DNA of 64,000 bases from Buxus sempervirens (Eukaryota; Streptophyta; Magnoliopsida; Buxales; Buxaceae), in assembly GCA_947561395.2 (NCBI GenBank), contig OX387190.1, positions 27,646,858 through 27,710,857 on the forward strand, given 5' to 3'. Both the position numbers and the translations under genes were made by a program. The notes beneath the pieces are model-generated. The model saw only the letters and a program-made list of their open reading frames with translations, did not search any database and was not told the DNA's origin. The number at the start of each line of letters is the position of its first letter. Positions within the stretch are counted from its first letter, which is position 1. Below are positions 7,703-61,184 of the stretch, one piece after another.

Positions 7703-9512
7703 TGTGAGACATGGGAAAAAAATCATATTCAATGACTTCCTCAATCATCACACGGGATTGGTTAAAAACACAGAATCCCCACCATTCAATTTAGGTGTGA
7801 ATGGACACCAAAATATCAAATAAGCACAAAAGGCAAATTTTAGGGTAAAAATAACCCTCTAAAAAAAAACAACCAGAGATGGGTAAGAGGATTAGGTTAT
7901 GAACAGGGGAAGGTGTTAGGCACCCCTATTCATCCACACAAGGTGGTTGCCAGGCATTGTTCATGTTAAAATAAAGGAAAAAGGCTTGCTATAAAAATCA
8001 CAAAAAATCACAAAAAAGACAAAGATGTATGGTTTTTTCATACGAATAGCCTGATTGATCTAGAACTTTCAAATATGATCATACCATTACTAGGGTTTCA
8101 TGATCAAAACAAAATTGAGATAAAATCAAATAAAACCAAAATAAAGTGAAAAATCCAAAAATCTGGCTTCAAGTTAAATTCTAGAAATCTAGAAAAATAT
8201 GATTTTTATAAAATATTTCAAAATTGAACTTGAACAGTCCAGGACATAGATATAGCCCAAATTTCACATTAAATCAAGAAATCAAAACCAAAAATACCCA
8301 CGTTGATGAAGAACATCAAAAGGGGAGAACTTAGACCGTAGGGTCTTCTCTCAATAATGAAAAACAACTCAAAAACCATATCATGAAACCCTAGAAGTTA
8401 TTTTCAGGCTTCTAGATCCAAATCTATCATATTGATCATGATGGATCCAGGATCTTAGCCTAATATCACAAAAATCACGAAAACAATGCTGTAGATGCAA
8501 AAGTGGTGAAAATCCAAATTTTATAAAAAAAGTGGGGATCTCATGCTATAAACATCATAGACTCATAGGATTAATCCAGATATAAAATAAAATCATTAAA
8601 ACATGATCAGGATATCAAAATTAGTCACATCTCACAAATTAGAGCACATGGGGGTCTACCCTACGGATCCACCTGTTCTCTTTTCCCCTAGCTCTCTCTT
8701 CACGTTTTACAACTAGAGAGGATTCTTGAGGTACTTGGAGATAGGTTTGGTGATACAAACACAATCAGAGGCCTTATTCTAGAAAAAAGAGAAAAAGAGA
8801 TATGGGGTCCTATTCTAGGGATCCACCTGTTCCCCTTTCCCCTAGCTCTCTCTTCACGTTTTACGGCTAGAGAGACTCTTGAGGTACTTAGAGACAAGTT
8901 TAGGAATACAAGATAAAAGATGGTCTGATTCTACAGCAATAGAGAAGATCCTATTATCTCTAGAATTGAAGACAGAAAATAAAAGGGAAAAGGGACTTAC
9001 TTGGATTGAGCAGGCAGAGCAGTAGGGATTCCTCTCTTCTCTTGGAGCTCCTTGGACTTCAAATTTTCGTGGCCTTTTGCTTGAGGAGAGACCCTCTATT
9101 TATAGGCACAGCCAGGGGTATGGTTGGTCCAAGGTTTGGCAAGATAGAGTTTCAGATTGAGTTAAACACAAGGATAATGCCCATCCATGGCCAACAAGGA
9201 TATTTCGAACGAAATAATGAGATAATTCGCTCATCTAAATACATATTGGACTAAAGATAAGGCTCAGAAATCGAGAGAAGAATAAAACTCTCACGAATCT
9301 AATGTGCCCGTAAATGATTTACGGTCCAATGGTGTCCGTATATATATTGCGGGCACTGCGTGTCCGTATATAAAATTCGGACGCGCTTAGCCCGTAGATA
9401 CAATACGGGCAAGGCTTAAATTATTGATTTTCATGCATTTTTGGCCTGTTTTAAATTCCAATTAATGTTTTTATTATTTTCTCATTTTGTAGTGCAATTT
9501 GGGGTGTCTACA
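7703..9512 (-). repeat. Element B 3' LTR (minus orientation)
   Basis: On the plus strand it begins TGTGAGACATGGG and ends GGGGTGTCTACA, the reverse complement of the element A LTR type (TGTAGACACC...TCTCACA). A TATA box (complement of TATTTATA, 9097-9104) and a four-dyad array (9306-9410) mark U3. An imperfect repeat around CGTTTTAC-GCTAGAG, spaced about 150 bp, lies downstream. Confidence 0.93.
9306..9410. promoter_or_regulatory. Dyad array 1 (B 3' LTR U3), four units
   Basis: Four units of GCCCGTA-like arm, 7 nt, TACGGGC-like arm, with 7-nt linkers. Left arms start at 9306, 9334, 9362 and 9390, an exact 28-bp period. Spacer and linker sequences differ while the arms are kept. It lies about 200 bp upstream of the LTR TATA box in the direction of LTR transcription. 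Confidence 0.85.
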
Positions 9513-9861
9513 ACTGCCCCCTTTTTGCTGGTAATTAGAACCAATTACAAGCAGAGAGCAAAAAGACCCACCAATTGCATTTTTTGAGATCTTTGTCTAA
9601 CTAATTGCATTTTGCAAGGATTAAATGGATGATTTTGGGAAAAAGAATTCATTGCGGAAGATTTGCTAAAAGTCCCTAAGCTTAAGGGGCAAATCTTCCT
9701 CTCTCCTCTCACTAAGCACTCGTGGCTATGAAGTGAGATTTGAGACAAAAAATTTTAAACAAAAGTGGGTAAGGTGGCAATCCTTGCAACTTACAACTAA
9801 TATAGACATTAATCTCCTAAAAAGTGTGGAGAAAATAATAAAAAATGCAATTTTCTGCTTC
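9513..9861 (-). other. Element B polypurine tract and short 3' noncoding region
   Basis: The minus strand reads AGCAAAAAGGGGGCAGT directly before the 3' LTR (9513-9529), as expected for plus-strand priming in reverse transcription. The rest of the interval matches the equivalent place in A (41050-41398) and shows no coding region. Confidence 0.75.
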
Positions 9862-9937
9862 GCCCGTATTTTCATTACGGACAGATGATGCCCGTAATTT
9901 GAACATGGGTGAAAGGGACCGTGTTACCTTTACGGAC
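9862..9937. promoter_or_regulatory. Dyad array 2 (upstream of B antisense PMD gene), three units
   Basis: Left arms at 9862, 9890 and 9917 (GCCCGTA, GCCCGTA, GACCGTG) pair with TACGGAC, CATGGGT and TACGGAC across 7-nt spacers. It precedes the leader exon of the plus-strand (antisense to B) PMD gene. No clear TATA box was seen after it. Confidence 0.75.
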
Positions 9938-11477
9938 GTCTGCTATTCGTACTGCTTTTACCGATTTTGGGGTTCTTCTTAACCGCGGCTGCGAACAGTT
10001 CTTCATTTCTGCTCGCACTTCAGCCCTAACTTCTTGCGCCCGTATTCTTCTCTCCGGTCCTCCTTCTTCTTCTTCCAATCTCCGACAGTGCACGACCTCT
10101 TCGCTCTGGCGACCACTGTTCTTCTCCGGCAACGTCTCTCGTTTTCCGGCGACCTTCACCATCTCCGGTGATTTCCAGCGACGGTTCTCTTTCATTGCCG
10201 TGCTCCATTTCTACCACTGCTGAGACTGTTGCTTCAAGCCTCTTCATTGTCAGACCAGTGCATCCTCTCACCTCCTGGGATTTCATTCCAATCATTCATG
10301 GGATATCCACTGTGTGTTAGCTCGAAGGTTCAATTTTCACTTTACAAATTCCTCATTTCGATCTATACAGGTATGTTAACCCATTTAGTTTTCTCCTCGA
10401 CTGAGAATCAATGTTCAAAATCCATGTTTGAATGAATACAATTATATGGGCATGATTTTGATTTACTCTGCTCGATTTACAGAGTTCTCCAACTCCTTAT
10501 CTGAACATGTGCAGTTGGGTGATTTGTGACTCATGAACTAATCTTCTGCCTGTTTCCAGCTGATTTTTATTTTGAAATTCTCCTGCTTCTATTATGACAT
10601 TCCATGCTTGTTTATCTTGATTTGTATGAATCCTCAATTTTGAAGCTTGCTTAGACTGATTTTGGTGCTTTGTCCTCTACAAACATGAATTACCAATTTA
10701 TGTTCACTTCATGCTCAATTTCCTGCATTCTTCAGTTATTGGACTATTGTGCTGCCTTGCTGTGAAATGCTGATTTGGAGCAATCATGTTTTGATTGGTG
10801 CTGTATTTTTCATGATTTTGATGCATGTTAGCAGACTTTTGTATGCTCAATTCCAGCTTCCGGACTGTTGCTTTAGGTTTCTTGAAACTTTGCTTTGATC
10901 ATTGGATGCTAGATGATTGCCCACCCCTGCATTTTTAGAAAACTGATTTTGACCAGCTTGGATCTGTACCAGAGGGGCCGCTAGGCCAATGATTTTGACT
11001 CCCTACTAAACCGATCCTCCATCCAATTGACAACCATGATAGCTTTCTGAATCTATAATTGAATAAACCTAAACTTGATGAGTACTTATGTTACCACAAT
11101 CCCAATACAAGTAGGCTTGAATTTCCGTCCTGAAACCAAAATACAAAAGAGAAGATTAAAATCAATCCTTAACACCTTCATATACATTTTCTTATTTTAT
11201 ATAAAGAGAATATACAAGAAGTCTAAACTTCTTATATATAATTTTTATATATTTTCTTGATTAAAGCAAAGACAAGTAAATATCACAATAAAATTTCTCC
11301 AAACAGAAAATTAAACTCCTTCAGTTGATTTCTGATTTGATTGGGAGTTTCTGAAACATTTTATTCTATTTTCCAGCTTTCTTTTTCCCGCAAATGAATT
11401 AAACTTAGTTAAAATGAAAATCAAGCAATAAAGATTTTAACAAGAATAATTAAATATCTCCCTGATTTGAACCGTAG
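9938..11477 (+). other. Leader exon and leader intron of the antisense PMD gene in B
   Basis: The segment to 10370 is CT-rich, leader-like sequence ending ATCTATACAG followed by GTATGT, a strong donor. The interval 10371-11477 (about 1.1 kb) is AT-rich, ends AACCGTAG directly at the start of the first coding block, and shows nothing coding. The same donor (ACAG|GTATGTT) and acceptor arrangement is present in A, which supports a real spliced leader. Splicing is inferred from sequence only. Confidence 0.6.
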
Positions 11478-14400
11478 ATAGCCCGCCTTCGATCAGCTTT
11501 CAGGGATCCTGCAGATGAGCCTTCCTCCTCAAGGGTTAGACGGGATCATGCTGATGTGGCATCGTCTTCGAGGGGCCGAGAGGGATTCTGATTCTGATAT
11601 TCCAGATCTCCCTTCTAGGGATTCGCGTGAGGCGACTCCAGAGGTATACTCTAATCTTTCTGAAATTTCACATTCCTTCACAAAATGCATCACCCTGATT
11701 CTTTCTCCCTTCCAATTGCTTCTTTAGCCGGTAGTTGAGGCTTCGGGCAGAGACAGGAGCCATAGCAGGCGTCGAGGTGGAGGCAGAGATGGAGGCTATG
11801 ATGAGGGCCGTAGAGGAGGTCGTGGCAGAGATGAGGCCAGGACCAGGGTTGAGGTCCCTGAGGAGGTGGCTTCCTAGATTAGGGATACCGATCTTTTGCA
11901 TGGCTTGAGGACTCATCCCTCAGCGTGTATTAGGGCGGATATCCCTTTGGAGTATCCTATGTCTCATTATAGAGGGAGCTGGGCCAGCTTTATTAAGTTT
12001 ATTGGAGATTGCAGTTCAGCCTTCTGCCGGGAGTTAAGCTTGTATGGCTTTGGCCTCTTCATCACCATTCTGGATGTGCGCCTGGATCGGGCCCTTATTG
12101 TTGCACTACTTGAGGGGTTCTTCCCCGAGACATTGAGCTTCCATTTTCCAGATATCGAGATTGGGATCCGGCCTTCTGACTTCACCCTTATCACCGGGAT
12201 TAGGATGACCGGTGATACTATTCCTGAGATGGTGATGCCGGATGCAGAGGAGATCGCCTCCTATCTTGGATATATTGTGTTGTCTCCGGAGGCATGGGAT
12301 AGAGGGAGAGCGAGACTGTCTCTGACTTGGTTGAGAGAGACTTTTCGGAGGAGGCAGCTTGGCCAACTTGCCACCAGTGATCCAGTTTTTCAATTCGCCT
12401 TCCGCTTCATTTTTCTGTACATGATGGGATCCTGCTTCTTTCCAGAGGACATGACTTCAGTTAGTCCTCATTTTTTGAGCTTATTGGGAGATCTTCATCG
12501 AGCGAGGAGGTATGCCTGGGGCCCGCTCATTTTTGGTACCATTTTGGCCGGCTTGCACCGATCAGTGAGCGGCCTCTCTACTTCCAGAGGAGCTGGAGTT
12601 GGGTGCAGATTCTTCTGGCCCTTCCGGCAGGTGAAATATCTATTTCTCTTCTCTTTCTTTCTCTCTTTTTCTATTCTTTTGATCTTCTTTTCCTTTTTTT
12701 TTTTTTTTTTTTGCAGTTTTTTGCTAGGGTTTATATCCCTTATTTCCGCCCTACCTTTACGATGCCAGAAGAGACATATCCCATGGCTCGTAGATGGTGT
12801 CATGTGGAGCACGACTCTGAAAAGAGTCGTCCTAGGTCTGCCCGGGCCCACCTGGACAGGCTATATCGGTCTGAGGTAAGCTGCTTTAATTCCTCTTCTC
12901 TCTCTCTTTTTTTTTTCTTTTCCTGGATCACATGTCTAATATCCTTTTCTGTTTTTTAAGCTGTTCGTCCCCAGGATGGAGGCCATTCATGAGGTGCTAG
13001 CCCTGCATGCGGCTAGGGATGATGCCTTTGCCCCTAACCAGAGACGTTAGAGATATCAGTTCTTTATTGGTCAGATGGGCAGCATCTGGTATTGCGGCGA
13101 GCGCTTCTTCTATCAACACGTTGGAGAGCCTCGGATTCCTGCCATCCCTCCAGATACTACCCCCTCCTTTCCTCCTATGCCGGTTGATTCTGCCCAGTTC
13201 CTAGATTGGACTAAGGCAGAGACTTTATTGGAGGAGGGTGACTATGATGCCTGGTTCAGGCGATCTTCAGTTGGGTGCCTCATGCCACCCATGCCTGTCC
13301 GTGGCTGAGTCACGGAGATTGGAGGGGTAGTGATTAGAGCTTATGACACGACGGTATGCCTTCTCCTTTTTGATCTTCTATTCTTTATTTTATTTGATCT
13401 TGGCATTTTCTGACACCTTTTCTTCTATTTCAGGAGGCTCAGTTGGCAGAGATCCGGTCTCGGTATTCTAATATAGAACGCCAACGAGATGCTGCTATTG
13501 CCGAGTGGGACGCCCTCTACATTACTATCTCAGACCTCCGAGGACAGCTTGGGGGCGCAGGGCCAGGTGGGCCCTTTTGATGCATAGGAGCAGGCAGGTC
13601 CATCTCATACCCAGGTTAATTCTTTCACCTCTTTCCATTTCTACTTTTATCTCTGTTTATCCTGTTCTAATTAAAATTTCCTTTCTTATTTTCAGGATGA
13701 CACAGCTGGTCCTTCTTCACCTGCTTCATCTGTGCCTATGCATCTTCATGGCGAGGTATTTTCTGTGGCACGGGTGGAGTTCGTGACTTCTCCTAGATCG
13801 GTAGAGGCACCTGTAGCAGAGCCCGAGATCGAGGCTGAGGTTGATCCTACTGCTGTGGATGTGCCAGATTCTGCTCCAGCACCTGAGACTGCTCCTGCTG
13901 CATCCACTAGTGTAGATATAGAGATGAAGTCTGTTGAGGGGGTTGCTGGGGTGGAGCCTATTGAGGAGGCTGTGCGCACCCGATTTCGGTCGCATGACGA
14001 GGTGCATGCGAAGTGATGCTTGCCTCGGGACTGGTTTGGAGTCACCACTGCCTGAGAGGTGCAGGCAAACACAAAAGGGGCACCTATCCGGGCTTACTTA
14101 TTCTGGTCTGCGGCTTATTAGAGTTCTGAGCAAGTTCTCGGTTACGTCTAGGGAAGTCCGAAGACACCCTAGCCCGCCCCGTCAGTTAACGGGTCCCACG
14201 GGTCTCCTTGGTTTTGAGTCAACTTAGTTTTCACCCAATTCCTAAGCCCTCATGCACACTTATTTGGTCTGAGTGGGGACCATTGAGGGTGTGGGTCCCC
14301 TTTTTATTTGATTTTATCTTTTTATCAATTAGTGGAGTGGGTCTGGTATGGGCCCCGTTGGAAGGCCCAGTGGAATCTAGGTTGGGCTTAAGTCAAGCCC

Positions 14401-14762
14401 AAGGCCCAATTCGGGTTATGGGTAACCCTTACTGGATTTTGGCTATTTGGCTTAAGGAGTTATTGAATATTCACAAAATTATTGAGTTAAAGCTTTTAGG
14501 GTCCAATGGGTTTGGATTTGGCCCAATGGCAATTAGTCAAGTGACCTTGGGCCCATTTATCCAAATGAGCCTTGCTTGGGCCAGACGGGATGTGGGCCTC
14601 ATCGGAGGGCCCACGAAGCCTTGGTGGGCCCAATTAGGCCCACAGTCTCAAAATGGGCTTGGAAAAGTCCAAGAAGCCCAATGGGTCAGATTATGTTAAA
14701 ATAGGTCGGATTGGGTCCAACCGGGGTCCAAAAAAGATGAATTTTAAGCTATTTTTTAATTT

Positions 14763-14867
14763 GCCCGTATTTACTGTACCGGCGGGCTTAGCCCGTAAAT
14801 ATAATACGGCTCAAGCCTGCCTGTATATTAAATACAGGCAAGTCTGAACCGCAATACAAGCACGGTT
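14763..14867. promoter_or_regulatory. Dyad array 3 (in X3), four units
   Basis: Left arms at 14763, 14791, 14819 and 14847 (GCCCGTA, GCCCGTA, GCCTGTA, AACCGCA), each with a 7-nt spacer and a matching right arm; the period is exactly 28 bp. The following plus-strand sequence is rich in TTCCGGC/TCTCCG motifs, like the leader exon of the antisense PMD gene. Confidence 0.85.
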
Positions 14868-15682
14868 TTCGCCCGAATTTCCATTCTTGCGCTGATTTCG
14901 GCCGGGAACAGTTCGGCTGGCTTCTTGGGGTCTCCGATGACTTCCGTTGAGTTTTCCGGCATCTTCAAGTTGACAGAAACATTCCATGTTTGATCTCAAT
15001 CTCCATTTTCTGCTTTTCCGCTTGTAATTCCGTCAAAGAAGGATAGACCTTCTTATTCTATCATCTTAAAACCTGCACATGTTAGTTTTAAAGATGGGAA
15101 AGAGGGAAAAAAGGTGTGGGGATACAGTGGATTTTTAGGAGGACAAACCCCTCCATAAAGTGGATTAATTAATGCTTATTTAGATTATGTCACAGTGTAT
15201 GTTTCTTTTCTACTTTCCTCCCATTTTGCATATAGATTCCCACCTTAGGTGGGACCTCTCATGACATGCCAAACACAACAAAAAAGATTAGAGATAAGAT
15301 AAAAGAAACTGAAAAATAAGTAAGGTAATGGAAAGACTTGAAAAGATGCCAAAATTAGCTTATTTCAACTTAAAATGACAAGAAGGCTTACAGTATCAAT
15401 ACTTGCTTGTGGGGTGGTTCTTCTAGTAATTTTGGCAGCGCTTCCGCATTCCTTGTGTTTCTTTGAAATGGGTTTGAAAAGGGATTCACTTAGCTTCAGG
15501 TTGAAAGAGTGGAAGAAAGAGAGATTATGCAAGGTTTATTGACAACCTAAGGGTATTTTGGGTATTATTTCGGGCTGGTGAGGTTCCGGCAGAACTTGGG
15601 TAGGGGTTGGATGCAGAAAAGTCGAGAAAGGAGAGGGGGAGCAGCTTGCACAAATGGGGGGGAGGGGGGGGGGCTGGCCCCA

Positions 15683-15690
15683 TATTTATA
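15683..15690 (-). promoter_or_regulatory. TATA box of X3 LTR
   Basis: The minus strand reads GGCTATAAATATGG here, 14 nt from the edge of the dyad array at 15705-15897. In the X3 reading direction the array is immediately upstream of the TATA box. Confidence 0.6.
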
Positions 15691-15704
15691 GCCAAAATTT
15701 TCGT

Positions 15705-15897
15705 GCCCGTATTTGAAGTGCGGGCATGCCTTGCCCGTATTTCAAATGTAGGCATGCCTTGCCCGTACTTCAAATGCGGGCGAAAAACGCACATTTTCAA
15801 ATCTCGCCGAATCGGCCGTACGGGACGCGTGTCCCCTTCTAGAAGCTTGCCCGTATTTGAAATACGGGCATGCCTCGCCCGTACTTCAAATACGGGC
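15705..15897. promoter_or_regulatory. Dyad array 4 (in X3, next to TATA), five clear units
   Basis: Clear units start at 15705, 15733, 15761, 15849 and 15877, with arms GCCCGTA and TGCGGGC or TACGGGC; those within each run are exactly 28 bp apart. The 15782-15848 gap keeps one weak GGCCGTACGGG dyad. Linkers are ATGCCTT or ATGCCTC throughout, so this array is more homogeneous than the others. Confidence 0.85.
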
Positions 15898-17105
15898 GCG
15901 CACGTTTTTTAAATGTTTGGATTTCAAATTTTTACCCAATTTGTTTTTTAAACAGATTTTATTCCGATTTTATGATTATTATATTATAAAAACGAGATTC
16001 CTTTATTAAAATATTATTAAAAAATAAAGATATTTCTATTAAATGATTATTTTATTTATTTAATTCATTTATTCTGCTTTTTTGCTGCTGTTTTGCCACA
16101 TGGGCAGCTTTCTTAAAACTTCAACTGCCCATAACTTTTCCGTCCGATGTCCGATTTCAGCAAACTTAGTATCGTCGGAATCAGCTTGAAATGTTCTATC
16201 TAATGGGATCAAATTAGGTAGTTGAATTGGGGTCGAGCAAAAAGTCAACTTTTGCTTCCCCAAAAGTTTGACCGGCTCATAATTTCCTCATCCAGACTCC
16301 AATTCCGGCAAACTCGGTTGCGTTGGAACCGTGTTGAAGTGCACTTTTCAATGAGATGAAGTTTTATGGCCAATTATCCTTGGATCAAAAAGTCAAATTT
16401 TGGCCCCCTTAGGGTTTGACTTTTTAATTGAAATTTTCATTTTCTTCATTTTTTGGGGTGCAAAAATCAGGTGCTAACAAAGGCCGTGGTGATAGAGGAG
16501 GCTGCTGTTGAGCCTGCGGATCCTAGTCCTGATATTGATGTTCCTGAGGCTGTGATAGACCCTCCACCTGTGATCAATGTTCCAGAGGTGCCGACTCCAG
16601 CTTCTAAGCCTACTATTAGTGTAGATCCTGCAGCTGAGCCCGTTCCTGCAGAACCTGATCTTGAGTCTACTAGAGACGTAGATCTCCCGGGGTCTGCCCT
16701 TGCTTCTTCAGCTGACTCCGGGTATGTTTATTCTATGCACTTGTCTTCTATTCTTGTATTTGTATGACATTCAATCTTTTTTTTGGGCTGCAGGAGGGAG
16801 CGTATTTCCGCTCGTGATAAAGTGCCGATAGTCTTTGGTCGTCGACGATCTTGAGGCAGAGGACGTGGCAGAGGCGGTGGACCTGCAGAGGCACAGTAGA
16901 TTAGGATTCTTCCTGTACATTTGTTTTAACAAACTGATGTATCCCTTCATATATATAAAAGAAATTTGATTCATTTTTATTCATTTGTGCTCTTTTTTCT
17001 TTTATTTCTAGCTTTTCTTGCATGATATGTGTTAATGCAGGGACAGGTGAAACTCAGGAAACCAATGAAATTAAAATTTCCCACTTTTTTGCATTTTCCC
17101 GAAGG

Positions 17106-17238
17106 AACCGTAATTATGTTACGAGCAAGCCGTGCCCATAATGTTAATGCGGGCGCACTCTGCCTGTAAATTTTCCACGGTCACAGTGTGTCCGTATTCT
17201 TTATACGGGCACACCATGCTCGTATTATAATTACGGAT
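17106..17238. promoter_or_regulatory. Dyad array 5 (promoter of second antisense gene, B), five units
   Basis: Left arms at 17106, 17134, 17162, 17190 and 17218 (AACCGTA, GCCCATA, GCCTGTA, GTCCGTA, GCTCGTA) with right arms TACGAGC, TGCGGGC, CACGGTC, TACGGGC and TACGGAT. Every spacer and linker is 7 nt. The array ends 23 nt before a TATA box. Confidence 0.88.
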
Positions 17239-17359: not shown

Positions 17360-17760
17360 ATGGCTTCCTTTGCCCCTTTCTCTTCTGCAGATGAATCTCC
17401 TCCTGCAAGACAACCTGTTAGATCAAAACCTCCTAATCTCACCAGGTACAATATCGTGGACTCCTTCTATGATAGATGGGTTAACTCTATGACCCTTGAT
17501 GAGGAGATTCGCTGGGATTCCATCCACTTAGGCCATATCCTACACCTCCCTAAAATTCCCTTTAAGTGGGAAATCATTGAAGCTTTGATTGGACACTGGG
17601 TACCTGAACTGAATCTCTTGCATTTTGATGACAAAGAGATGACTCCTACCATAGAAGAAATTGAAACCATCTTTGGCCTAAGGTTTTTTGAAAAAGTTGT
17701 GAACTCACCCCTAAAGCCTAGCAACAAAAAGGAGGCCTCCACCTTCTTGGGTATAGGGAA
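17360..17760 (+). pseudogene. Second antisense gene of element B (DUF7745-like), first part
   Basis: Starts MASFAPFSSADESPPARQ and continues through RWDSIHLGHILHL, HWVPELNLLHFDDKEM and IEEIETIFGLRF, close to the copy in A at 36271. This helical N-terminal domain resembles DUF7745 proteins often found near plant Tat elements; that name is from recall. The gene is cut at GGGAA (17756-17760) by X1 and element A; its remainder is at 43223-44600. Confidence 0.75.
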
Positions 17761-17892
17761 TGTAAGCACCTCATTTTTGCGCTCCCAAAAAAAAAACCAA
17801 AAATACAAACCCTGGACAGAAAGTCAAACCCTAAGGGGTGAAAAGTTGACTTTTTGATCAAGTGAAAATTGCCCACCTCGCTTTATGCCATT

Positions 17893-18790
17893 GGATAGAG
17901 AATCTCGACACGGTTCCAACGCAACTGAGTTTGCAGGAATCAGGGTCCGGATGAAGGTTCTGCGGGCGGTCAAACTAAAGCAGAGCCAAAAGTTGACTTT
18001 CTGCTAAAATCCGATCCAGAGGCCTACCCCTAGGTCATTGGATAGAGAATCTCGACACGGTTCCAACGCAACTGAGTTTGCAGGAATCGGGGTCTGGATG
18101 AAGGTTCTGCTGGTGGTCAAACTTGAGTAGAGCCAAAAGTTGACTTTCTGCTAAAATCCGATCCGGAGGCCTACCCCTAGGTCATTGGATAGAGAATCTC
18201 GACACGGTTCCAACGCAACTGAGTTTGCAGGAATCGGGGTCCGGATGAAGGTTCTGCGGGTGGTCAAACTTGAGCAGAGCCAAAAGTTGACTTTCTGCTA
18301 AAATCCGATCCAGAGGCCTACCCCTAGGTCATTGGATAGAGAATCTCGACACGGTTCCAACGCAACTGAGTTTGCAGGAATCGGGGTCCGGATGAAGGTT
18401 CTGCGGGTGGTCAAACTTGAGCAGAGCCAAAAGTTGACTTTCTGCTAAAATCCGATCCAGAGGCCTACCCCTAGGTCATTGGATAGAGAATCTCGACACG
18501 GTTCCAACGCAACTGAGTTTGCAGGAATCGGGGTCCGGATGAAGGTTCTGCGGGTGGTCAAACTTGAGCAGAGCCAAAAGTTGACTTTCTGCTAAAATCC
18601 GATCCAGAGGCCTACCCCTAGGTCATTGGATAGAGAATCTCGACACGGTTCCAATGCAACTGAGTTTGCAGGAATCGGGGTCCGGATGAAGGTTCTGCGG
18701 GTGGTCAAACTTGAGCAGAGCCAAAAGTTGACTTTCTGCTAAAATCCGATCCGGAGGCCTACCCCTAGGTCATGGGATGGAGGGCTCCGA
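17893..18790 (+). repeat. 147-bp tandem repeat in X1, six units plus a partial
   Basis: The anchor GGATAGAGAATCTCGACACG recurs at 17893, 18040, 18187, 18334, 18481 and 18628, a constant 147-bp step. A diverged seventh begins near 18775. Units are nearly identical, so the array was amplified or homogenised recently. X2 has only about two units plus the diverged one. Confidence 0.9.
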
Positions 18791-19180
18791 TACGATTCTA
18801 ATGAAACTAAGTTTGCCCAGATCGGAGTTCGGATGAAGGAAATATGAGCTGACGAAATTCCCGGGCAGCAAAACCGGCAATCTGCGCACGTGGCAAAAAG
18901 CTGCACACGTGGCGAGTTGCGCAGGAAAATATCTCGGGGATTAAATCCGTAAATATCCAAACATACGAAATATCCCAGGGACTAAATCCGTGAAAATCTG
19001 AGAATATCGGATTAAATCAAAAATTGCCAGGGACTAAATCTGAATTTTTCAGATTTTTACGTCCTGCGAGCGGCGGCATTAAATGATTTTCATCATTATG
19101 CCGCTCGCGCGGACGTGGCGAGCGAGCATGTGCCCACCTTGAGCTGGGCGCCAAGGTGGGCGGCACCTTTTTTTCTGGCT

Positions 19181-19188
19181 TATATAAG
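19181..19188 (+). promoter_or_regulatory. TATA box of X1 LTR
   Basis: TATATAAG within GGCTTATATAAGCC. X2 has TATATAAA at 45621-45628 in the matching place. Confidence 0.5.
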
Positions 19189-19303
19189 CCGCGCAACTTC
19201 TCGCGCAGGAGGGTTGAAAAAATTCGAAAAAAAAAAACTAAGTGTTCAGAGTGTGAGAGGGTTCGAAGGGTTTTTTTTGTTTGATTTCCTTCTTCCTTCA
19301 TCC

Positions 19304-19465
19304 GAAGCCCCTCTCTTCACCCCTGCTTGCTCCCCAGAAAACCCCAAGAGGCTCATCCTCCTTTGGTTCTTCTCCATTTCACCCGAAGCCCCTCTCTTCA
19401 CCCCTGCTTGCTCCCCAGAAAACCCCAAGAGGCTCACCCTCCTTTGGTTCTTCTCCATTTCCACC
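19304..19465 (+). repeat. Tandem duplication of 81 bp in X1
   Basis: Two adjacent copies beginning GAAGCCCCTCTCTTCACCCC at 19304 and 19385 are nearly identical. They lie in the transcribed part of the LTR, about 120 bp after the TATA box. Confidence 0.8.
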
Positions 19466-20364
19466 CAAGCAAGTGGAAGCTTGCTACTGTTGGTGCGGTG
19501 AAGTGGAGGATCCCGCTGCTGTCCGGTTTCGAGGAGGCTCCCACGTTCGGCTCCAGAACTTAAGAACCACCAGGTGAGGATCCCTGTTACTTTGGGTTAC
19601 ATATATATGAATATGCAATGTTCTTTAGTAAGCCGGTCTTATTCAGTGGTATGAAACCACTGCCATGAAAGCTTGCTGTGTTTTTTTTCTGTTCACTTCC
19701 ATCTGATAAATACCACCCAGCAAGGAAGAGGAAGATGCATGTGCTATTCACGTCGAGAAGGGAGCATGTTCCCCAAGTGCCCGCCATCTAATGTACCCCT
19801 GTAAACCCCCCCCCCCTTCCTCCTTCCCTTCTTCAGGTATTAGTGTGCATGTTCGAGGTCTAGTAGGGTGGAGGAAAGTGCATATAATGTCTGCATGTGG
19901 TTTTTTTTTGTTGTTTTTACGTTGCTGGACTTGCAAGCATGCTATTTTCTACTTGTGCACCCTTGAGCATGCTCCCATCACCCCCCCCCCCCCCCTTTTT
20001 AAGCTGTTTATGAGTCTGTACCTGTTTGCTTTTTTATCGGGTCTGTTTTTTTCCTTTTGAGAGATTTTGGGTTGTGGGATGAAGCATGAATCATGCTTAG
20101 ACTAGTTTTAATACAAGTTTAAGTGCCTTCTGGGGAGTGGTCGAAGCCCGGGGAAGTGTCCTGGGCATATTATTCGAGAAGTATTTTGAATGCATGTTTG
20201 TATTGTGAGTTTTCTGGGTTTTCAAAACTTGAAATAAAATGTGTTTAGATTAAATCCAAAATTAGTTGGGAGGTGTTCTGGGCATGTTAAGAGGCTAGTG
20301 GAACAGTTACAGACCAAAAAAAATCGGCCAGAGTTGGAGATCTCAAAAAAACAGAGAGTAGTGA

Positions 20365-20620
20365 ACTGCCGCCCACCTGGCGCCCACCTGGCGCTCACCT
20401 AGGAGGTGGGCGCCCCTTTCATCTCACTTCCCGCCGAGCTGGCGCCCACCTGGCGCTCAGCTCGCGCCCACCTAAAACCAAGTGAAATTCTCGCGCCCAT
20501 CTCGCGCTCACCTCCCGCCCATCTCGCCCTCACCTGGTATCGGGTGAGCGCCAGGTCAAAATTTCGCCCGATTCTGGCGCCCACCTGGCGCTCACCTCAG
20601 GAGGTGAGCACCAGGTCCAA
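20365..20620 (+). repeat. GCGCTCACCT / GCGCCCACCT short repeat block in X1
   Basis: Degenerate copies of a 10-12 nt unit such as GGCGCTCACCT or GGCGCCCACCT occur more than ten times. X2 has a parallel block at 46795-46985. It looks like an internal family feature and not a gene. Confidence 0.7.
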
Positions 20621-21903
20621 AACAGGCCGAATTGTTATTTTTTTTGAAAATTCCAAAAATACCCCTTACCATACCGCGGGGGGCCACCCCTTGGTTCGCT
20701 GCGCGTCCAACTCGTACCTTGGACCCAGCACAATGAGCCGGTTTTTTTTTCTTACAGAGTGTCTATCTTGTGTCTTTTTGTGTGATTATTGCTAGATGTG
20801 AATGATATTTCTGAACCGAACCGGATAAACCAATAGGGTTTCTGGGTCACCCGGAAACCCTACATGGGACTTGGACTCCCGGTCCAACTTGACTTCCAGT
20901 GGGCCTTCCAACGGGGCCCACCAAGCCCAATAAACACCAAAAGCATGCCATTAGAATAACTTAAGTAAAATGAACAATTTGAACCGAGCGGGCCAAACCC
21001 AATGCGGCCCACCCGAGCCTTGTTATGTGAAATTGATGCATGAATTGCGTGGTTTGGCCGAGACCAAGGGCAAGGGCCTACCGGGCCCGCCAAAGCCCAC
21101 CAACCGAACCAAGGAAGGGTGCAAACCCTAACTTCCGGTAACTGGGGCTTACAAGCCCAGATTTGGACTGCGGGCCCCAAGCCCAGTGTCCGAATCACTT
21201 TGGCAAAATTAAAAAGATAAGTCCAATAAAAAAAATACTTGGCCACCATGTGGGCCCACCTAAGGGGCCCACCAACCAGTCCGGCCCACTTGTGCATAAA
21301 AAAACACTTAACCTTCAAATCTGAATCTAAAGTAAAATCAATGCACCAACCAGAGCCCAAAGGGCCTCCTAGGATAGGCCAAGGCCCACAAGGGCACACA
21401 GGCTTGACTAAGCCCACCAAGGATACCGTGGGCCTTCCAACGGGGCCCACCCAACCAGACTCAGATTACCTAAGTAATCAAGATAAAAGCAACTAAAGGG
21501 ACCCACACCACTCAGGTGGTCCCGCCAGACTTAACCAAATTGCATATCGGATTAGGAAACAGGTGAGACCAATGTAAGCTGACTCAAAACAGGGAACCCA
21601 CGGGACCCGTCATCCGACGGGGTGGACCGGGGTGTCTACGGACTTCCCCGGACCACAACCGAGAACAGACTTAGAATCTCAAGCCGCAGACCAAAAGCCC
21701 TAATAGACAGGATTAGGCACCCAGGTGTCCGCCTGCACCCCATCAGGCGATGGCGACTCCGAATTACCCCGTGCCGCGTTTCCCAAGCGCGCACAGGGAA
21801 TGTAGACACCCCAAATTGCACTACAAAATGAGAAAATAATAAAAACATGTAATTAGAGCTTAAAACAGGTCAAAAAAACCTAAAAATAGAATGAACAGGC
21901 TTT

Positions 21904-22007
21904 GCCCGTATTTTCTTCACGGGCCTATCGCGCCCGAAAATTATCTACGGGCAGGCGCGCCCGTAGTACCAATACGGTCACTATTGGACCGTAGTGCATT
22001 TACGGGC
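21904..22007. promoter_or_regulatory. Dyad array 6 (A 5' LTR U3), four units
   Basis: Left arms at 21904, 21932, 21959 and 21987 (GCCCGTA, GCCCGAA, GCCCGTA, GACCGTA) with right arms CACGGGC, TACGGGC, TACGGTC and TACGGGC. Spacers are 7 nt; one linker is 6 nt. About 200 bp upstream of the LTR TATA box. Confidence 0.88.
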
Positions 22008-22208
22008 ATTAAAGACACGTGCAAGTTTTGTCCTTCTCTCGATTTCCGAGCTTTATTTGAAGTCCAATATATCTTTAAACGAGCGAATTAAGTGTTTTAT
22101 TCGCTGAAGCCACCTTGGTTAGCTATGGATGGGCATTATCTCTGTATTTCACTCTATCCTAAAGACCAGGCTATATCCTTCTGGACCAACCATACCCCTG
22201 GGTGTGTC

Positions 22209-22216
22209 TATAAATA
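22209..22216 (+). promoter_or_regulatory. TATA box of element A 5' LTR
   Basis: TATAAATA in GTGTCTATAAATAGAGG, the likely start of the genomic and messenger RNA. Counterparts: 41807-41814, and on the minus strand 9097-9104 and 60769-60776. Confidence 0.75.
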
Positions 22217-28980: not shown

Positions 28981-29194
28981 CATACAGCTCGGGCTATACC
29001 ATCTACCCTCCACCAAAGAGTCAAGTATATTAGAGGGCAAAAGGTGATTACCGTCCTGGCCGAAAACTTGGTTCCCCCCATGTGGTCCCCTGACGTACCC
29101 TGTATTAACACGGAAATGACAGCAGATAAGATGGCGTTTCACTCTTTTCAATTTGAAGCTGTGAATTATATACCTGGGGGGTATTAGCAAAAAG

Positions 29195-35525: not shown

Positions 35526-35556
<31 letters not shown>

Positions 35557-43217: not shown

Positions 43218-43222
43218 GGGAA

Positions 43223-45735: not shown

Positions 45736-45761
45736 CCCCCCCCCCCCCCCCCCCCCCCCCC
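45736..45761 (+). repeat. Homopolymer of 26 C in X2
   Basis: An unbroken C run just after the TATA region of X2. X1 has shorter C runs at about 19806-19817 and 19980-19995. Such runs are unstable and the assembly length may be wrong. Confidence 0.8.
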
Positions 45762-46794: not shown

Positions 46795-46985
46795 TTTTTA
46801 GCATCCGCCCACTTCTTAAATTTGGATGCGCTCACCTCGCACTCACCTCGCGCTCACCTAAATTTGGATGCGCTCACCTTGCGCTCACCTCGCGCTCACT
46901 TAAATTTGGATGCGCTCAGCTCGCGCTCACCTCGCGCTCACTTAAATTTGGATGCGCTCAGCTCGCGCTCACTTGATTTTTGGGT
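46795..46985 (+). repeat. GCGCTCACCT short repeat block in X2
   Basis: CTCGCGCTCACCT and AAATTTGGATGCGCTCA alternate about four times in a roughly 40-bp higher-order unit. It is the counterpart of the X1 block at 20365-20620. Confidence 0.75.
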
Positions 46986-47006
46986 GGGCCCACTTCACCT
47001 TTATCT

Positions 47007-47545
47007 TGAAAAATCCCGAAAATGCCCTTTACCTTGAAAAATCCCGAAAATGCCCTTTACCTTGAAAAATCCCGAAAATGCCCTTTAACTTGAAAAATCC
47101 CGAAAATGCCCTTTACCTTGAAAAATCCCGAAAATTCCCTTTACCTTAAAAAATCCCGAAAATGCCCTTTACCTAGAAAAATCCCAGAAATGCCCTTTAC
47201 CTTAAAAAAATCCCGAAAATGCCCTTTGCCTTGAAAAATCCCGAAAATACCCTTTACCTTGAAAAATCCCGAAAATGCCCTTTACCCTGAAAAATCCCGA
47301 AAATCCCCTTTGCCTTAAAAAATCCCGAAAATACCCTTTACCTTGAAATATCCCGAAAATGCCCTTTACCTTAAAAAATCCCGAAAATGCCCTTTACCTT
47401 GAAAAATTCCGAAAATGCCCTTTACCTTGAAAAATCTCGAAAATGCCCTTTACCTTGAAAATTCCCTAAAATGCCCTTTGCCTTAAAAAATCCCGAAAAT
47501 GCCCTTTACCCTGAAAATGCCCTTTACCTTGATAAATCCCTCCCC
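47007..47545 (+). repeat. 28-bp tandem repeat in X2, about 19 units
   Basis: Unit GAAAAATCCCGAAAATGCCC plus TTTACCTT. Some units are shortened or altered. X1 has just one weak equivalent near 20645-20670, so the array grew in X2 or was lost in X1. Confidence 0.88.
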
Positions 47546-48644
47546 TTGGACCCAGTATAATGAGCCCGTCTCTCCTTGATAAATGTCAATTTTGATATGT
47601 TTCTGTGATGTATATTCTGTAACTTTTGCTAGACATGGGTGGCATTCCTAAATCAAGCCAAATGAGCCAATAGGGTTTCTGGGTGACCTGGAAACCCAAT
47701 ATGGGACTTGCACCCCCGGTCCAACTTGATTTCCAGTGGGCCTTCCAACGGGGCCCACCCGGCCCAATAAACACAATGAAGGGTATGCATGCAACTTAAT
47801 TGAGATAAGTAAAATTAACTGATTAAACCGGGCGGGCCAAACCTAAGGCGGTCCATCCGAACCGGACTTGTGAAATTGATGCATGAAATGCGTGGTTTGG
47901 CCGAGACCAATGGCAAGGGCCTACCGGGCCCACCAAAGCCCACCAACCGAACCAAGGAAGGGTGCAAACCCTAACTTCTGGTAACTTGGGCTTACAAGCC
48001 CAGATTTGGACTACGGGCCCCAAGCCCAGTGTCCAACTCACTTTGGCAAAATTAAAAAGATAAATCCAATAAAAATACTTGGCCACCATGTGGGCCCACC
48101 TTAGGGGCCCATAAACCAGTCCGGCCTACCTTTTCATGGAAAACACTTAAACTTTAAATCTGAACCTAAAGTAAAATCAAAACACTTAACCAAAGCCCAA
48201 AGGGCCTCCTAGGATAGGCCGAGGCCCACAAGGGCACACGGGCTTGACTAAGCCCACCAAGGACACCGTGGGCCTTCCAACGGGGCCCACCTAACCAGAC
48301 TCAGATTACCTAATTAATCAAGATAAAAGCCATTAAAGGGACCCACACGACTTAGGTGGTCCCGCCAAACTTAACCAAACTGCATATCGCATTAGGAATC
48401 GGGTGAGACCAAAGTAAAGCTGACTCAAACCAGGATAAACCTAAGGGACCCGTCACCCGACGGGGTGGACCGGGGTGTCTACGAACTTCCCCGGACCGCA
48501 ACCGAGATCCTACTTAGAATCTCAAAGCCGCAAACCAAAAGCCCTAATAGATAAGATTAGGCACCCAGGTGTCCGCCTACACCCCATCAGGCGGTGGCGA
48601 CTCCGAACTTCCCCGTGCCGCGTTTCCGACGTGCGCACAACTGG

Positions 48645-56658: not shown

Positions 56659-56889
56659 GGCGTGAGCTCTTGATCTGGTTACATGAGCTATGATTGTAAG
56701 TTTATTGGTACCTGGAAAAAAAAAACGAAAATATCACTGCCAATTTAATCTCATTCACCTGCCTATGAATGCCTATGTGCAAGCTGGGTGAACACGAGTT
56801 TGGATTTGTTTCTTTATTTGCTTCTCTTTTTTTTTTTAATCGAATTGTTGGAATATTCTAGGGCTTCCAACAGGTCCCACAAAAAGAGA

Positions 56890-57865
56890 AAAAGATCTTA
56901 AATTCAAAGGCTTTCAGAGGCCCAAGGATATTTTTGGAAAAGGTCTGAAATTCAAAGGCTTTCAGAGGCCCAAGGATTTTTTATAAAGGTCTGAAATTCA
57001 AAGGCTTTCAGAGGCCCAGAGATTTTTTTATAAAGGTCTGAAATTCAAAGGCTTTCAGAGGCCCAGAGATTTTTGATAAAGGTCTGAAATTCAAAGGCTT
57101 TCAGAGGCCCGAGGAAGAAGATCTGAAATTCAAAGGCTTTCAGAGGCCCAAAGGAAAAAGATCTGAAATTCAAAGGCTTTCAGAGGCCCAAAAGATCTGA
57201 AATTCAAAGGCTTTCAGAGGCCCAAAGGAAAAAGATCTGAAATTCAAAGGCTTTCAGAGGCTCGAGGAAGAAGATCTGAAATTCAAAGGCTTTCAGACGC
57301 CCAAAGGAAAAAGATCTGAAATTCAAAGGCTTTCAAAGGCCCAAAGGAAAAAGATCTGAAATTCAAAGGCTTTCAGAGGCCCAGAGATTTTTTAGAAAAA
57401 GTCTGAAATTCAAAGGCTTTCAGAGGCCCAAAGGAAAAAGATTTGAAATTCAAAGGCTTTCAGAGGCCCAAGGATTTTTTTGAGAAAAAGTCTGAAATTC
57501 AAAGGCTTTCAGAGGCCCAAGGATTTTTTGAGAAAAAGTCTGAAATTCAAAGGCTTTCAGAGGCCCAAGGATTTTTTGAGAAAAAGTCTGAAATTCAAAG
57601 GCTTTCAGAGGCCCAGGGAGTTTTTGAGAAAAAGTCTAAAATTCAAAGGCTTTCAGAGGCCCATGGAGTTTTAAGAAAAGGTCTGAAATTCAAAGGCTTT
57701 CAGAGGCCCGGAGATTTTTGAGAAAAAGTCTGAAATTCGAAGGCTTTCAGAGGCCCATGGAGTTTTGAGAAAAGGTCTGAAGTTCAAAGGCTTTCAAAGG
57801 CCGGCCCAAGGAGTTTTGAGAAAAAGTCTGAAATTCAAAGGCTTTCAGAGGCCCAAGGGATTTTC
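56890..57865 (-). repeat. Leader tandem repeat of element B, about 22 units
   Basis: On the plus strand TCTGAAATTCAAAGGCTTTC AGAGGCCC recurs with purine-rich joints; it is the inverse of the A repeat at 25150-26003. The AAA/GAG joints differ from A in length and sequence while the core is kept. Confidence 0.92.
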
Positions 57866-59357
57866 TTTCACATTTTTATTTATTTATTTATTTTTTTGAA
57901 GCATTTTATTCAAACTCATTTCCCTTTTTCATCATTTAAAGGTTAAAGGAACAGGATTTAATGGGAAAAACTGTTTAAAATTGAATATCCTGCAAAAACC
58001 GCATATTTACCACGGTTCGGCCTTGCCTGTATTCAAATTACGAGCAAGCCGTGACCATATGATTAACACGGGCGAGCCCAGCCCGTATAACCAATACGGG
58101 TGAGCCCAGCCCGTGTACTAAATGCGGTTTTACGGAGCTCTTTTATGTTTTCCAGTTTTTACATGGTTTGATCACTTTGATTGTTCATCCAAATATACGG
58201 TTCACCCATTTCAAGGCTTCTAAACTGTCCCAAAGTGGACTTTGACCTATTTGCAAAACACATGTTTAGGAGGGCACATGTGCCCTCCAAATTGACACCA
58301 TACTCAATAATTTAGTACCCTTTTGCTGCCTCTTGTATGAACATTGGGTAGGATTGATTCTAAACAGAGTTAGAAACTCTTCCTATGGGCTACACCATTT
58401 TTAGGAAACATGCATATTTAGGACCAATTTTATCCCAAACCAATGGACACCAAGATACCCCTATGACATGAAAATAATGCAAAAATTAAGGTTACCTTGT
58501 TTACCTTCAATATGGCACCCGCATTATGCCCTGGTTTGTAAGCCATGCAAACGGCCTTCCCATAATTACAAACCCATATTCCCCCATAATTGTGTATTTT
58601 AGCCAAAAACGTGTAACTCCACCTTCAAGCGTAGGGGTTTTGGCTTAATGGCAACTTAGCACTCAAGCTTAGTAATGACCAGAATCACAGATCCACTTTA
58701 TCATCACATCATTGGCCCAAAGTTCTAAGGTGAATGTTTTCACTTTCGCTTTCCGAAGTATCGACCTCGTTGCGCCAAGCTACACACATTCGGGTTCAAC
58801 TTCCTATATGTTATAGGTAGGCTGTGTAAAAAAATAAATTGTGGACAGTGCATTGTAAAAATTGGATGCATTCACAACATCCCAAACCCTTGCCACTCTT
58901 TTCGCAGCCACGCATATACAAACCAAGGCATGATATGAAAGCATATTTAAAGTAAACAAGTACAAGGAAACAAAGTATCCCTATAGCACCTAAAACATGC
59001 TCATAAAAATCATCCAATCATGCAAACATATGATCATGTTATACAACCCAAAAACCCACCATGGAGATCATGCTGAAAATTAAAACATGCTATTATAAAA
59101 ATACATCAATAAATCAGCATGGTTTAACAAAACGAACCTCCCCTACGCATGTTTCTAGAAACAATCCTATAAATCAAAATTAAGCATGTTTCTACCCCCA
59201 TGAACTCTTAAGTAATCATTCAGATTTAAAACATACCCAACATGCTTAAGAACACAAAATAGCAAGCAAAACAAAGACATGCTAAAAACACAAAATAGCA
59301 AGCAAATCAAAAAATATCAAAAACATGAACAAACAAAAAAAGGCTGAAATCCTCAAG
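57866..59357 (-). other. Leader of element B, noncoding
   Basis: Inverse match of 23641-25149 in A. Contains dyad array 57997-58129; otherwise no feature seen. Confidence 0.7.
57997..58129. promoter_or_regulatory. Dyad array 11 (B leader), five units
   Basis: Left arms at 57997, 58025, 58053, 58081 and 58109 (AACCGCA, GCCTGTA, GACCATA, GCCCGTA, GCCCGTG) with right arms CACGGTT, TACGAGC, CACGGGC, TACGGGT and TGCGGTT. The period is exactly 28 bp throughout. Confidence 0.88.
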
Positions 59358-59375
59358 TCCCTAGCAGAGTCGCCA
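59358..59375 (-). other. Primer-binding site of element B
   Basis: The minus strand reads TGGCGACTCTGCTAGGGA, two bases from the 5' LTR, the same type as in A. Confidence 0.8.
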
Positions 59376-59377
59376 GT

Positions 59378-61184
59378 TGTTAGACATGGGAAAAAAATCA
59401 TATTCAATGACTTCCTCAATCATCACACGGGATTGGTTAAAAACACAGAGTCGCCACCATTCAATTTAGGTGTGAATGGACACCAAAATATCAAATAAGC
59501 ACAAAAGGCAAATTTAGGGTAAAAATAACCCTCTAAAAAAACAACCAGAAATGGGTAAGGGGATTAGGTTATGAACAGGGGAAGGTGTTAGGCACCCCTA
59601 TTCATCCACACAAGGTGGTTGCCAGGCATTGTTCATGTTAAAATAAAGGAAAAAGGCTTGCTATAAAAATCACAAAAAATCACAAAAAAGACAAAGATGT
59701 ATGGTTTTTTTCATACGAATAGCCTGATTGATCCAGAACTTTCAAATATGATCATATCATTCCTAGGGTTTCATGATCAAAACAAAATTGAGATAAAATC
59801 AAATAAAACCAAAATAAAGTGAAAAATCCAAAAATCTTGCTTCAAGTTAAATTCTAGAAATCTCGAAAAATATAATTTTTATAAAATATTTCAAAATTGA
59901 ACTTGAACAGTCCAGGACATAGATATAGCCCAAATTTCACATTAAATCAAGAAATCAAAACCAAAAATACCCACGTTGATAAAGAACATCAAAAGGGGAG
60001 AACTTAGACCGTAGGGTCTTCTCTCAATAATGAAAAATAACTCAAAAACCATATCATGAAACCCTATAAGTTATTTTCAGGCTTCTAGATCCAAATCTAT
60101 CATATTGATCATGATGGATCCAAGATCTTAGCCTAATATCACAAAAATCACGAAAACAATGCTGTAGATGCAAAAGTGGTGAAAATCCAAATTTTATAAA
60201 AAAGTGGGGATCTCATGCTATAAACATCATAGACTCATAGGATTAATCCAGATATAAAATAAAATCATTAAAACATGATCAGGATATCAAAATCAGCCAC
60301 ATCTCACAAATTAGAGCACATGGGGGTCTACCCTACGGATCCACCTGTTCTTTTTTCCCCTAGCTCTCTCTTCATGTTTTACGGCTAGAGAGGATTCTTG
60401 AGGTACTTGGAGATAGGTTTGGTGATACAAACACAATCAGAGGCCTTATTCTAGAAAAAAGAGAAAAACAGATATGGGGTCTTATTTTAGGGATCCACCT
60501 GTTCCCCTTTCCCCTAGCTCTCTCTTCTCGTTTTACAGCTAGAGAGACTCTTGAGGTACTTAGAGACAAGTTTAGGAATACAAGATAAAAGATGGTCTTA
60601 TTCTACAGCAATAGAGAAGATCCTATTATCTCTAGAATTGAAGACAGAAAATAAAAGGGAAAAGGGACATACCTGGATTGAGCAGGCAGAGCAGTAGGGA
60701 TTCCTCTCTTCTCTTGGAGCTCCTTGGACTTCAAATTTTCGTGGCCTTTTGCTTGAGGAGAGACCCTCTATTTATAGGCACAGCCAAGGGTATGGTTGGT
60801 CCAAGGTTTGGCAAGATAGAGTTTTAGATTGAGTTAAACACAAGGATAATGCCCATTCATGGCCAACAAGGATATTCCGAACGAAATAATGAGATAATTC
60901 GCTCATCTAAATACATATTGGACTAAAGGTAAGGCTCAGAAATCGAGAGAAGAATAAAACTCGCACGAATCTAATGTGCCCGTAAATGATTTACAGTCCA
61001 ATGGTGTCCGTATATGTATTACGGGCGCTGCGTGTCCGTATATAAAATTCGGGCGCGCTTAGCCCGTAGATACAATACGGGCAAGGCTTAAATTATTTAT
61101 TTTCATGCATTTTTGGCCTGTTTTAAATTCCAATTAATGTTTTTATTATTTTATCATTTTGTAGTGCAATTTGGGGTGTCTACA
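59378..61184 (-). repeat. Element B 5' LTR (minus orientation)
   Basis: Plus strand TGTTAGACATGGG...GGGGTGTCTACA, followed by CCTCT (61185-61189). TATA complement at 60769-60776; a splice donor complement lies near 60670. Differs from 7703-9512 at about 46 positions. Confidence 0.93.
60978..61082. promoter_or_regulatory. Dyad array 12 (B 5' LTR U3), four units
   Basis: Left arms at 60978, 61006, 61034 and 61062; same layout as array 1, with several arm changes between the two LTR copies. Confidence 0.85.

Follow-up and report, generated by a model that had tools for sequence, protein, structure and literature searches.

A 64,000-nucleotide (nt) stretch of the Buxus sempervirens genome (GCA_947561395.2, contig OX387190.1, positions 27,646,858–27,710,857 of the forward strand; hereafter the window, with coordinates counted from its first letter) contains twelve arrays of a phased dyad, GCCCGTA-N7-TACGGGC, repeated at a 28-base pair (bp) step (code A). 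Ten of the twelve lie within two nested long terminal repeat (LTR) retrotransposons that bear PMD-type genes, and two lie in a solo LTR of the LTR-III family. On balance, we favor the reading that these arrays are promoter-proximal cis-regulatory sites in double-stranded DNA for a dedicated dimeric protein, most likely one of the element's own PMD/DUF7745 proteins. A second code (code B, ATCCGGY-N7-RCCGGAT, 39-bp step) stands at corresponding LTR, leader and PMD-promoter places in relatives of these elements. The window was scanned with ≤4 mismatches over the 14 arm positions and compared with ten dinucleotide-preserving shuffles, while genome scans covered the whole 676.5-Mb assembly (247 contigs) with the reversed pattern as control. 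L numbers denote single loci or contigs, among them 20 loci of 10 kb on contig 1 that were picked for code A.

Dyad units were found at all twelve places listed in a preliminary description of the window, with 63 dyads in total versus 3–11 per shuffle, and a 27–29-bp step was seen in none of the ten shuffles. The exact 28-bp step of that description was borne out as a phasing of the arrays, although some steps are 27 bp; linkers within arrays are mostly 7 nt and at times 6 nt. Degenerate units (>4 mismatches) end two arrays, at 9945 and 14847, and begin the array at 57997. A profile of 90 half-sites (45 of 53 units, with 8 units of near-identical LTR copies excluded) gave the consensus [GA][CAT]CCGTA followed by N[AT]. 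Six of the seven arm positions carry 1.24–1.69 bits and one carries 0.64, compared with ≤0.75 in the spacer and ≤0.33 in the linker, and left and right arms share one common profile. Within arrays, 51 of 52 CCGTA...TACGG pairs have a 7-nt gap and the remaining pair a 12-nt gap (gaps of 3–12 nt). On the linker side, the TACGG...CCGTA gap (3–19 nt) is 11 nt in 33 pairs and 10 nt in 4, with other gaps (4–7, 13, 15 and 16) accounting for 10 pairs together.

The spacer lock extends beyond the window. Genome-wide, the exact code-A dyad occurs 11,266 times at N7 (reversed control, 0), and the same arms occur 67 times at N8–N30, all 23 spacings together (control, 28). Over 270,202 bases of window and loci, exact 7-bp arms with a CCG core were found 77 times at spacer 7, against 0–4 cases for any other spacer in the range 0–24, in a survey that is not a random sample because the loci were picked for code A. 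When code-A-like arms were removed, CCG-core dyads still numbered 9 at spacer 7 versus ≤4 at other spacers, or 35 versus ≤9 with one mismatch allowed.

The dyads that were placed lie inside elements. Among 50 exact dyads listed for C1:1–8.8 Mb, 46 fell inside fetched loci and all 46 belong to elements: 35 to LTR-III, 9 to LTRi-type LTRs and 2 to leaders. At ≤3 mismatches, the 10.5 kb of the window outside elements contain zero dyads, and two 4-kb solo LTRs of a further family (17761–21795 and 44776–48640) contain one isolated imperfect dyad apiece and zero arrays. The second of these also holds a 28-bp tandem repeat of 18.5 copies (46998–47517), which has the array period but is not such a dyad.

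Within the two nested retrotransposons, the arrays occupy corresponding places. The inner element (21801–43217, plus strand) carries four units in its 5' LTR (21904–22007, plus; TATA box 200 nt on), four in its 3' LTR (41502–41605, plus) and five in its leader (24847–24979, plus), together with five units upstream of an antisense DUF7745 gene (36393–36524, minus) and four upstream of an antisense PMD gene (40945–41048, minus). The outer element (7702–61184, minus strand) carries four units in its 5' LTR (60978–61082, minus), four in its 3' LTR (9306–9410, minus) and five, one of them degenerate, in its leader (57997–58129, minus); three clear units and one degenerate unit lie upstream of its PMD gene (9862–9965, plus) and five upstream of its DUF7745 gene (17106–17238, plus). 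Each of the four LTRs thus has an array at about 100 bp from its start, and arrays likewise occur in both leaders and upstream of both DUF7745 and both PMD genes. The solo LTR-III (13971–16479, minus strand), which sits inside the outer element, contains a promoter array in two blocks of three and two units (15705–15897, minus; TATA box 14 nt on, minus strand) and a second array of three clear units and one degenerate unit (14763–14867, no strand assigned).

The preliminary description had seen neither the relatives' other dyad codes nor the place of the arrays at LTR-retrotransposon promoters. In both window copies of the DUF7745 gene, the TATA sequence TATATAAA starts 22 nt past the array, and the LTRs of the inner and outer elements have a TATA box ~200 nt past theirs. 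These distances recur in the 20 fetched loci: a TATA was found at +14 or +15 in 11 of 11 LTR-III promoter arrays, and at +200 to +210 in nine of ten LTRi-type LTR arrays, the tenth being interrupted by an insertion. The array at L030 4481 was left out of the LTRi-type count as a PMD-promoter array.

Arms are conserved more strongly than the bases between them. In orthologous arrays of the inner and outer elements (one LTR per element), arms are 225/252 (89%) identical, spacers 81/126 (64%) and linkers 64/95, so that the comparison of arms with spacers proposed in the preliminary description came out in favor of the arms. As a neutral scale, we used fourfold-degenerate sites from three gag and pol stretches, of which 373/494 (75.5%) are identical; arms exceed this scale (P = 4e-6) and exceed spacers plus linkers (P = 4e-10) in Fisher tests that assume independent sites. 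Spacers and linkers are mildly more diverged than fourfold sites (145/221 versus 373/494, P = 0.008), and the case for spacers evolving much faster than flanks is weaker on that scale. The same ranking was obtained from 13 LTRi-type U3 pieces (interrupted L026 excluded, and LTR pairs of one element not compared), with identities of 0.867 in arms, 0.581 in spacers and 0.584 in linkers; identity was 0.81 before the array and 0.81 overall after it, with 0.70–0.79 in the nearest 320 nt.

A phased-dyad scan of the window and fetched loci that accepted any arm sequence identified two further codes. Arrays of four code-B units, GTATCCGGY-N7-RCCGGATAC at 39-bp steps, are present in L021, L031 and L018, reading GTATCCGAC in L018 and L031 units, and L026 has a similar array between matched parts of a 4-kb-type LTR; code-B arrays are located at L021 2411–2566 and 1725–1788, L031 9688–9843 and 7968–8070, L018 2962–3117 and L026 7241–7396. 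No code-B dyad was found in the window within 4 mismatches. Among 18 LTR starts of the LTRi-type family from the window and loci, code A was seen in 14, at +102 to +104, and code B at +90 in two (L021 and L031); in one more, L018, code B is displaced inward by ~500 bp, following what looks like an insertion. The last of the 18, the LTR of L027 (1068–1650), carries a third code, AACCGCN-N7-NGCGGTT, in U3 at irregular steps, with a TATA at +579. The code-B LTRs of L021 and L031 form one group (support 1.0) in a tree built from U3 pieces, while deeper placement is weak.

Where it can be read, the code switch is coordinated across the arrays of one element: L031 has code B at the LTR place and the leader-array place, and L021 has it at the LTR and PMD-promoter places, the latter beside a shared GCGACTTTTC stretch. 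Exact code-B dyads occur at 23,647 places genome-wide (control, 2), and codes A and B together at 34,913 places in one 677-Mb genome. For 70 code-B places drawn from the genome list, within-cluster steps are 39 bp in 30 of 39, and in five elements four clusters are spaced at 3.5–3.8, 11.1–11.9 and 4.9–5.8 kb, resembling the spacing from LTR to leader, DUF7745 promoter and 3' LTR of the inner element (2.9, 11.5 and 5.1 kb); one match in the reverse order merely bridges two neighbouring elements. For three code-B arrays, identities are 0.815 in arms, 0.571 in spacers and 0.488 in linkers. When codes A, B and the third are aligned by their spacers, their CCG triplets coincide, which makes CCG-N11-CGG the common form; the step of code B is 11 bp, approximately one helical turn, longer than that of code A.

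These observations bear on several ways of reading the arrays. The arms are complementary and able to pair, and hairpin formation in RNA or single-stranded DNA might be their function, the fold that the preliminary description offered beside a protein site. However, in a set of 43 units, with two degenerate ones and one LTR of every pair excluded, we observed 6 identical double changes in paired arms versus 5.1 expected (P = 0.40), and 3 versus 3.3 across linkers; the compensatory changes expected of structured RNA are thus lacking, both arms have the same substitution profile and Rfam gave zero matches. Because the arms do not covary and a TATA box closely follows some arrays (those of the DUF7745 genes and LTR-III), we read the dyad as a DNA site and consider a hairpin very improbable. 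Less probable still is that the arrays are neutral tandem repeats from slippage. Exact duplication has enlarged some arrays (L025), and spacers within the LTR-III promoter array are alike (0.77), as slippage would predict, yet in the remaining arrays spacer likeness is 0.40 within an array versus 0.35 between arrays while the arms are kept, and the array stands at a fixed distance from LTR start and TATA. We reject a neutral repeat because the arms are conserved and the spacer is locked.

Recognition by host proteins deserves more weight in one form than in another. All twelve arrays are CpG peaks (observed/expected ratio of 1.13–1.78 versus 0.25–0.83 in flanks), and RNA-directed DNA methylation and VANC both act on such noncoding regions in VANDALs, according to the part of the source available (PMC10398659), so the arrays could be landing sites for host silencing guided by proteins or small RNAs. 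A silencing target should be lost, yet the arms are kept beyond the neutral rate and CpGs are kept at 56/65 in arms versus 68/107 in flanks, and we regard this explanation as improbable. A serious rival, possible though short of probable in our judgement, is that host transcription factors read the arrays and that related families recruited different members of one factor family. It has a precedent in the palindromic repeats upstream of TATA and ENV in Sireviruses, where a role of host stress factors has been suggested (PMC2829016), and it would accommodate LTR-III elements that have code A and no PMD-type gene in the parts read. Such factors would be expected to have host sites, whereas the exact dyads checked were all in elements, and different places of one element carry one code in relatives. 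A NAC-type host site was considered and set aside; its form is CGT-N7-ACG, and the form here is CGT-N9-ACG.

A cooperatively binding dimeric protein, as suggested in the preliminary description, fits the strict 7-nt spacer, the alternating half-sites, the kept arms and the equal arm profiles. The dimer, its cooperativity, the identity of the protein and any effect on transcription or methylation are inferred. In the reading that we favor, each 21-bp dyad (CCG-N11-CGG core) would bind one dimer, and neighbouring dimers, 28 bp apart, would bind cooperatively. With one array per LTR promoter, one per antisense PMD-type gene and one in the leader, the transcription units may respond together: since the LTR and both antisense genes carry an array, they would answer to one protein, and since the separate arrays of one element switch code as a set, that protein is probably dedicated to the element. 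Its specificity would change jointly with the sites. PMD-type proteins are the obvious candidates for this probable reader, with a host factor as a possible substitute, and one of the element's PMD/DUF7745 proteins might act as an activator or anti-silencer. The first coding pieces of both genes show conservation of codon positions 1 and 2: identities at positions 1/2/3 between the inner and outer elements are 0.947/0.947/0.82 for the DUF7745 gene (133 codons) and 0.883/0.943/0.717 for the PMD gene (247 codons). As judged by eye, the predicted PMD product has an acidic region as well as RG-rich stretches, and the tail of the DUF7745 product is charged and resembles a coiled coil. A review suggests that elements may make PMD proteins against silencing (PMC8616336, seen in part).

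Several results weigh against a dedicated, element-encoded reader acting at promoters. Arms are barely above flanks taken whole (0.893 versus 0.867, the latter from 3661/4221 identical sites), where flank identity in the 60 nt adjoining each array is 0.60–0.87. No TATA box was found beside the PMD arrays or the outer leader array of the window, the inner leader array has a weak TATA alone, on the opposite strand, and only one of ten second LTR-III arrays has a TATA match within ≤260 nt; a promoter is therefore not shown beside every array. The code-B cluster at the DUF7745-promoter place is suggested by distances only. As for the candidate genes, the last PMD piece is not conserved (10 synonymous and 25 non-synonymous codon changes over 77 codons), the second DUF7745 piece is weakly conserved (37 synonymous and 38 non-synonymous), and PMD proteins are not known to bind DNA, as stated in the available portion of PMC9899485. 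Several outer coding pieces contain stops as aligned. Finally, an LTR-III element (L032 4694–10000 with L037), followed from the 5' LTR almost as far as the inferred 3' LTR, has gag and keeps code A, and over this near-full read it lacks all pol, DUF7745 and PMD matches.

A second LTR-III element, L038, was read in part; gag alone was seen, and code A is kept. The LTR-III gag is ~40% identical to the gag of the window, and these apparently gag-only elements could equally be passengers on the protein of an autonomous family. L017, considered as an LTR-III pair around a divergent DUF7745 gene, was dropped, its two LTRs being only ~75% alike. Taken further, the pattern suggests a private, evolving promoter code, a proposal that we hold tentatively and would place a little below an even balance: a PMD-type dimer encoded by the element would read CCG-N11-CGG at all of its own promoters, lineages would change the CCG-flanking bases jointly and stretch the phase by one helical turn, and gag-only relatives would ride along. 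Families with different codes would offer a built-in specificity test, in which each protein should favor its own dyad.

Self-comparison of the window defined the two nested elements. Both begin with TGTAGACACC, finish with CA and have 5-bp copies alongside. The inner, Tat/Ogre-like retrotransposon has LTRs at 21801–23620 and 41399–43217 (99.5% identical) flanked by copies of GGGAA, and the outer one, of the same family, has LTRs at 59377–61184 and 7702–9512 (97.4% identical) flanked by copies of AGAGG and carries later insertions. One such insertion is the solo LTR-III, flanked by GAGGC and AAGGC. The GGGAA sequence occurs three times (17756–17760, 21796–21800 and 43218–43222), and the inner element apparently landed next to a 4-kb solo LTR, both using one 5-bp target.

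On the plus strand, the inner element encodes gag and pol (26329–32915) in two separate open reading frames (ORFs), gag at 26329–28977 and pol at 29853–32915, the latter with reverse transcriptase, RNase H, a second RNase H and integrase. The second RNase H (RVT_3, residues 637–755) lies between RT_RNaseH (478–582) and rve (922–1018), in agreement with the aRH feature. Its antisense genes are of DUF7745/PMD type (34447–36271, minus; pieces 35563–36271 and 34447–35202) and PMD type (36731–39244, minus; pieces 38504–39244, 37648–38172 and 36731–37384, with a Pfam match in the first). They match PF10536 and PF24924, as in the extra PMD ORF, and the product of the DUF7745 gene also matches PMD. 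In the outer element, the PMD gene region spans 11896–13960 (plus; PMD match at 11896–12876), and the start of the DUF7745 gene (17360–17760, plus) is interrupted by later insertions, the gene resuming from 43218. This domain set is in keeping with the Tat clade; the separate gag and pol ORFs and the PMD ORF agree with Ogre elements, 57% of which have an extra PMD ORF (PMC6317226).

Other features of the window were also recorded. An ORF between the inner gag and pol (29203–29817) matches a G-patch domain (E = 3.3e-7), and tandem repeats of ~40 bp with a short inverted repeat of their own (CTGAAAG...) are located in the leaders of both elements (25303–25996 and 56888–57864). A large inverted repeat (1033–2349) has arms of ~0.6 kb that are 81% identical and contains 65-bp and 36–37-bp tandem units. 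When the window's DUF7745 protein was compared with the genome, the 150 copies scored of 5,520 first-look candidates were all 97–100% identical, which points to a recent burst among the scored copies. Protein searches for relatives gave one weak relative in one search, none in the other and none in PDB. A pattern of two dyads had 0 matches in viral contigs. One contig listed as viral has a stretch 33% identical to the PMD protein (L001 5001–5210; one weak match), and the CCGTA-N7-TACGG dyad is absent from L001.

The preliminary description knew of no named element with this form. Sequence and phase are indeed unmatched, but Sirevirus motifs (PMC2829016) and VANC arrays (PMC5735166) come close in layout, and the comparisons below draw on the portions of the cited papers that were available. 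Sireviruses carry many palindromic CGG/CCG copies in the LTR shortly upstream of the TATA, with further copies before the accessory gene and CpG peaks (PMC2829016). Our arrays share the palindromic CGG/CCG repeats in the LTR upstream of the TATA, while the order of gag, reverse transcriptase and integrase and the Pfam matches place their elements in Ty3/gypsy (Tat) and not in Ty1/copia, to which Sireviruses belong. The Sirevirus motif is reported as Sirevirus-specific and absent from classic elements; its palindromes are compact, mostly with 0–4 nt between the CGG–CCG halves, and that text describes no fixed phase (PMC2829016), in contrast to the variable 7-nt spacer and 28- or 39-bp phase in Buxus. 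The Sirevirus accessory gene is ENV in sense (PMC2829016), and here the genes are antisense and of PMD type.

Among systems that involve PMD proteins or antisense genes, the DOWN motif is a promoter motif of genes that depend on MAIN/MAIL1/PP7L and is thereby linked to PMD proteins, whose direct binding is not known from the same sources (PMC7156037, PMC9899485). It gave no match as the identity of the dyad: its MORC1 copy, CATGCAGTTT, has neither dyad form nor a CCG core (PMC7156037, PMC9899485). Retand, also of the Tat clade, has tandem repeats and antisense ORFs between pol and the 3' LTR with a proposed regulatory role, but these encode a TRP28 domain and not PMD (PMC11963269). A literature search that left most subscription journals outside its scope found no phased dyad arrays in Tat/Ogre elements, no arrays common to LTR and antisense PMD-gene promoters and no code switch.

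Another of the nearest precedents is VANC in VANDALs, where short motif arrays spread across the noncoding parts of the element differ between related families (PMC5735166, PMC10398659), as codes A and B do here at matching places. VANDALs are DNA transposons, and their motifs, YAGTATTAY and AGTTGTCC/AGTTGTAC, are given with palindromy unmentioned in the text available (PMC5735166, PMC10398659). Binding and hypomethylation have been demonstrated for VANC (PMC5735166, PMC10398659), whereas binding at the Buxus arrays is a proposal. Palindromic repeats before the TATA and accessory gene, as in Sireviruses, and element proteins that read family-specific arrays, as in VANDALs, are therefore already known from these sources; phased dyad arrays common to LTR and antisense PMD-gene promoters and the coordinated code switch are apparently new. 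PMD proteins occur both in elements and, as MAIN/MAIL1, in the host, and the arrays represent a concrete and abundant candidate target. If the reading that we favor is correct, they would provide a DNA target for element-encoded PMD proteins and a retrotransposon counterpart of VANC.

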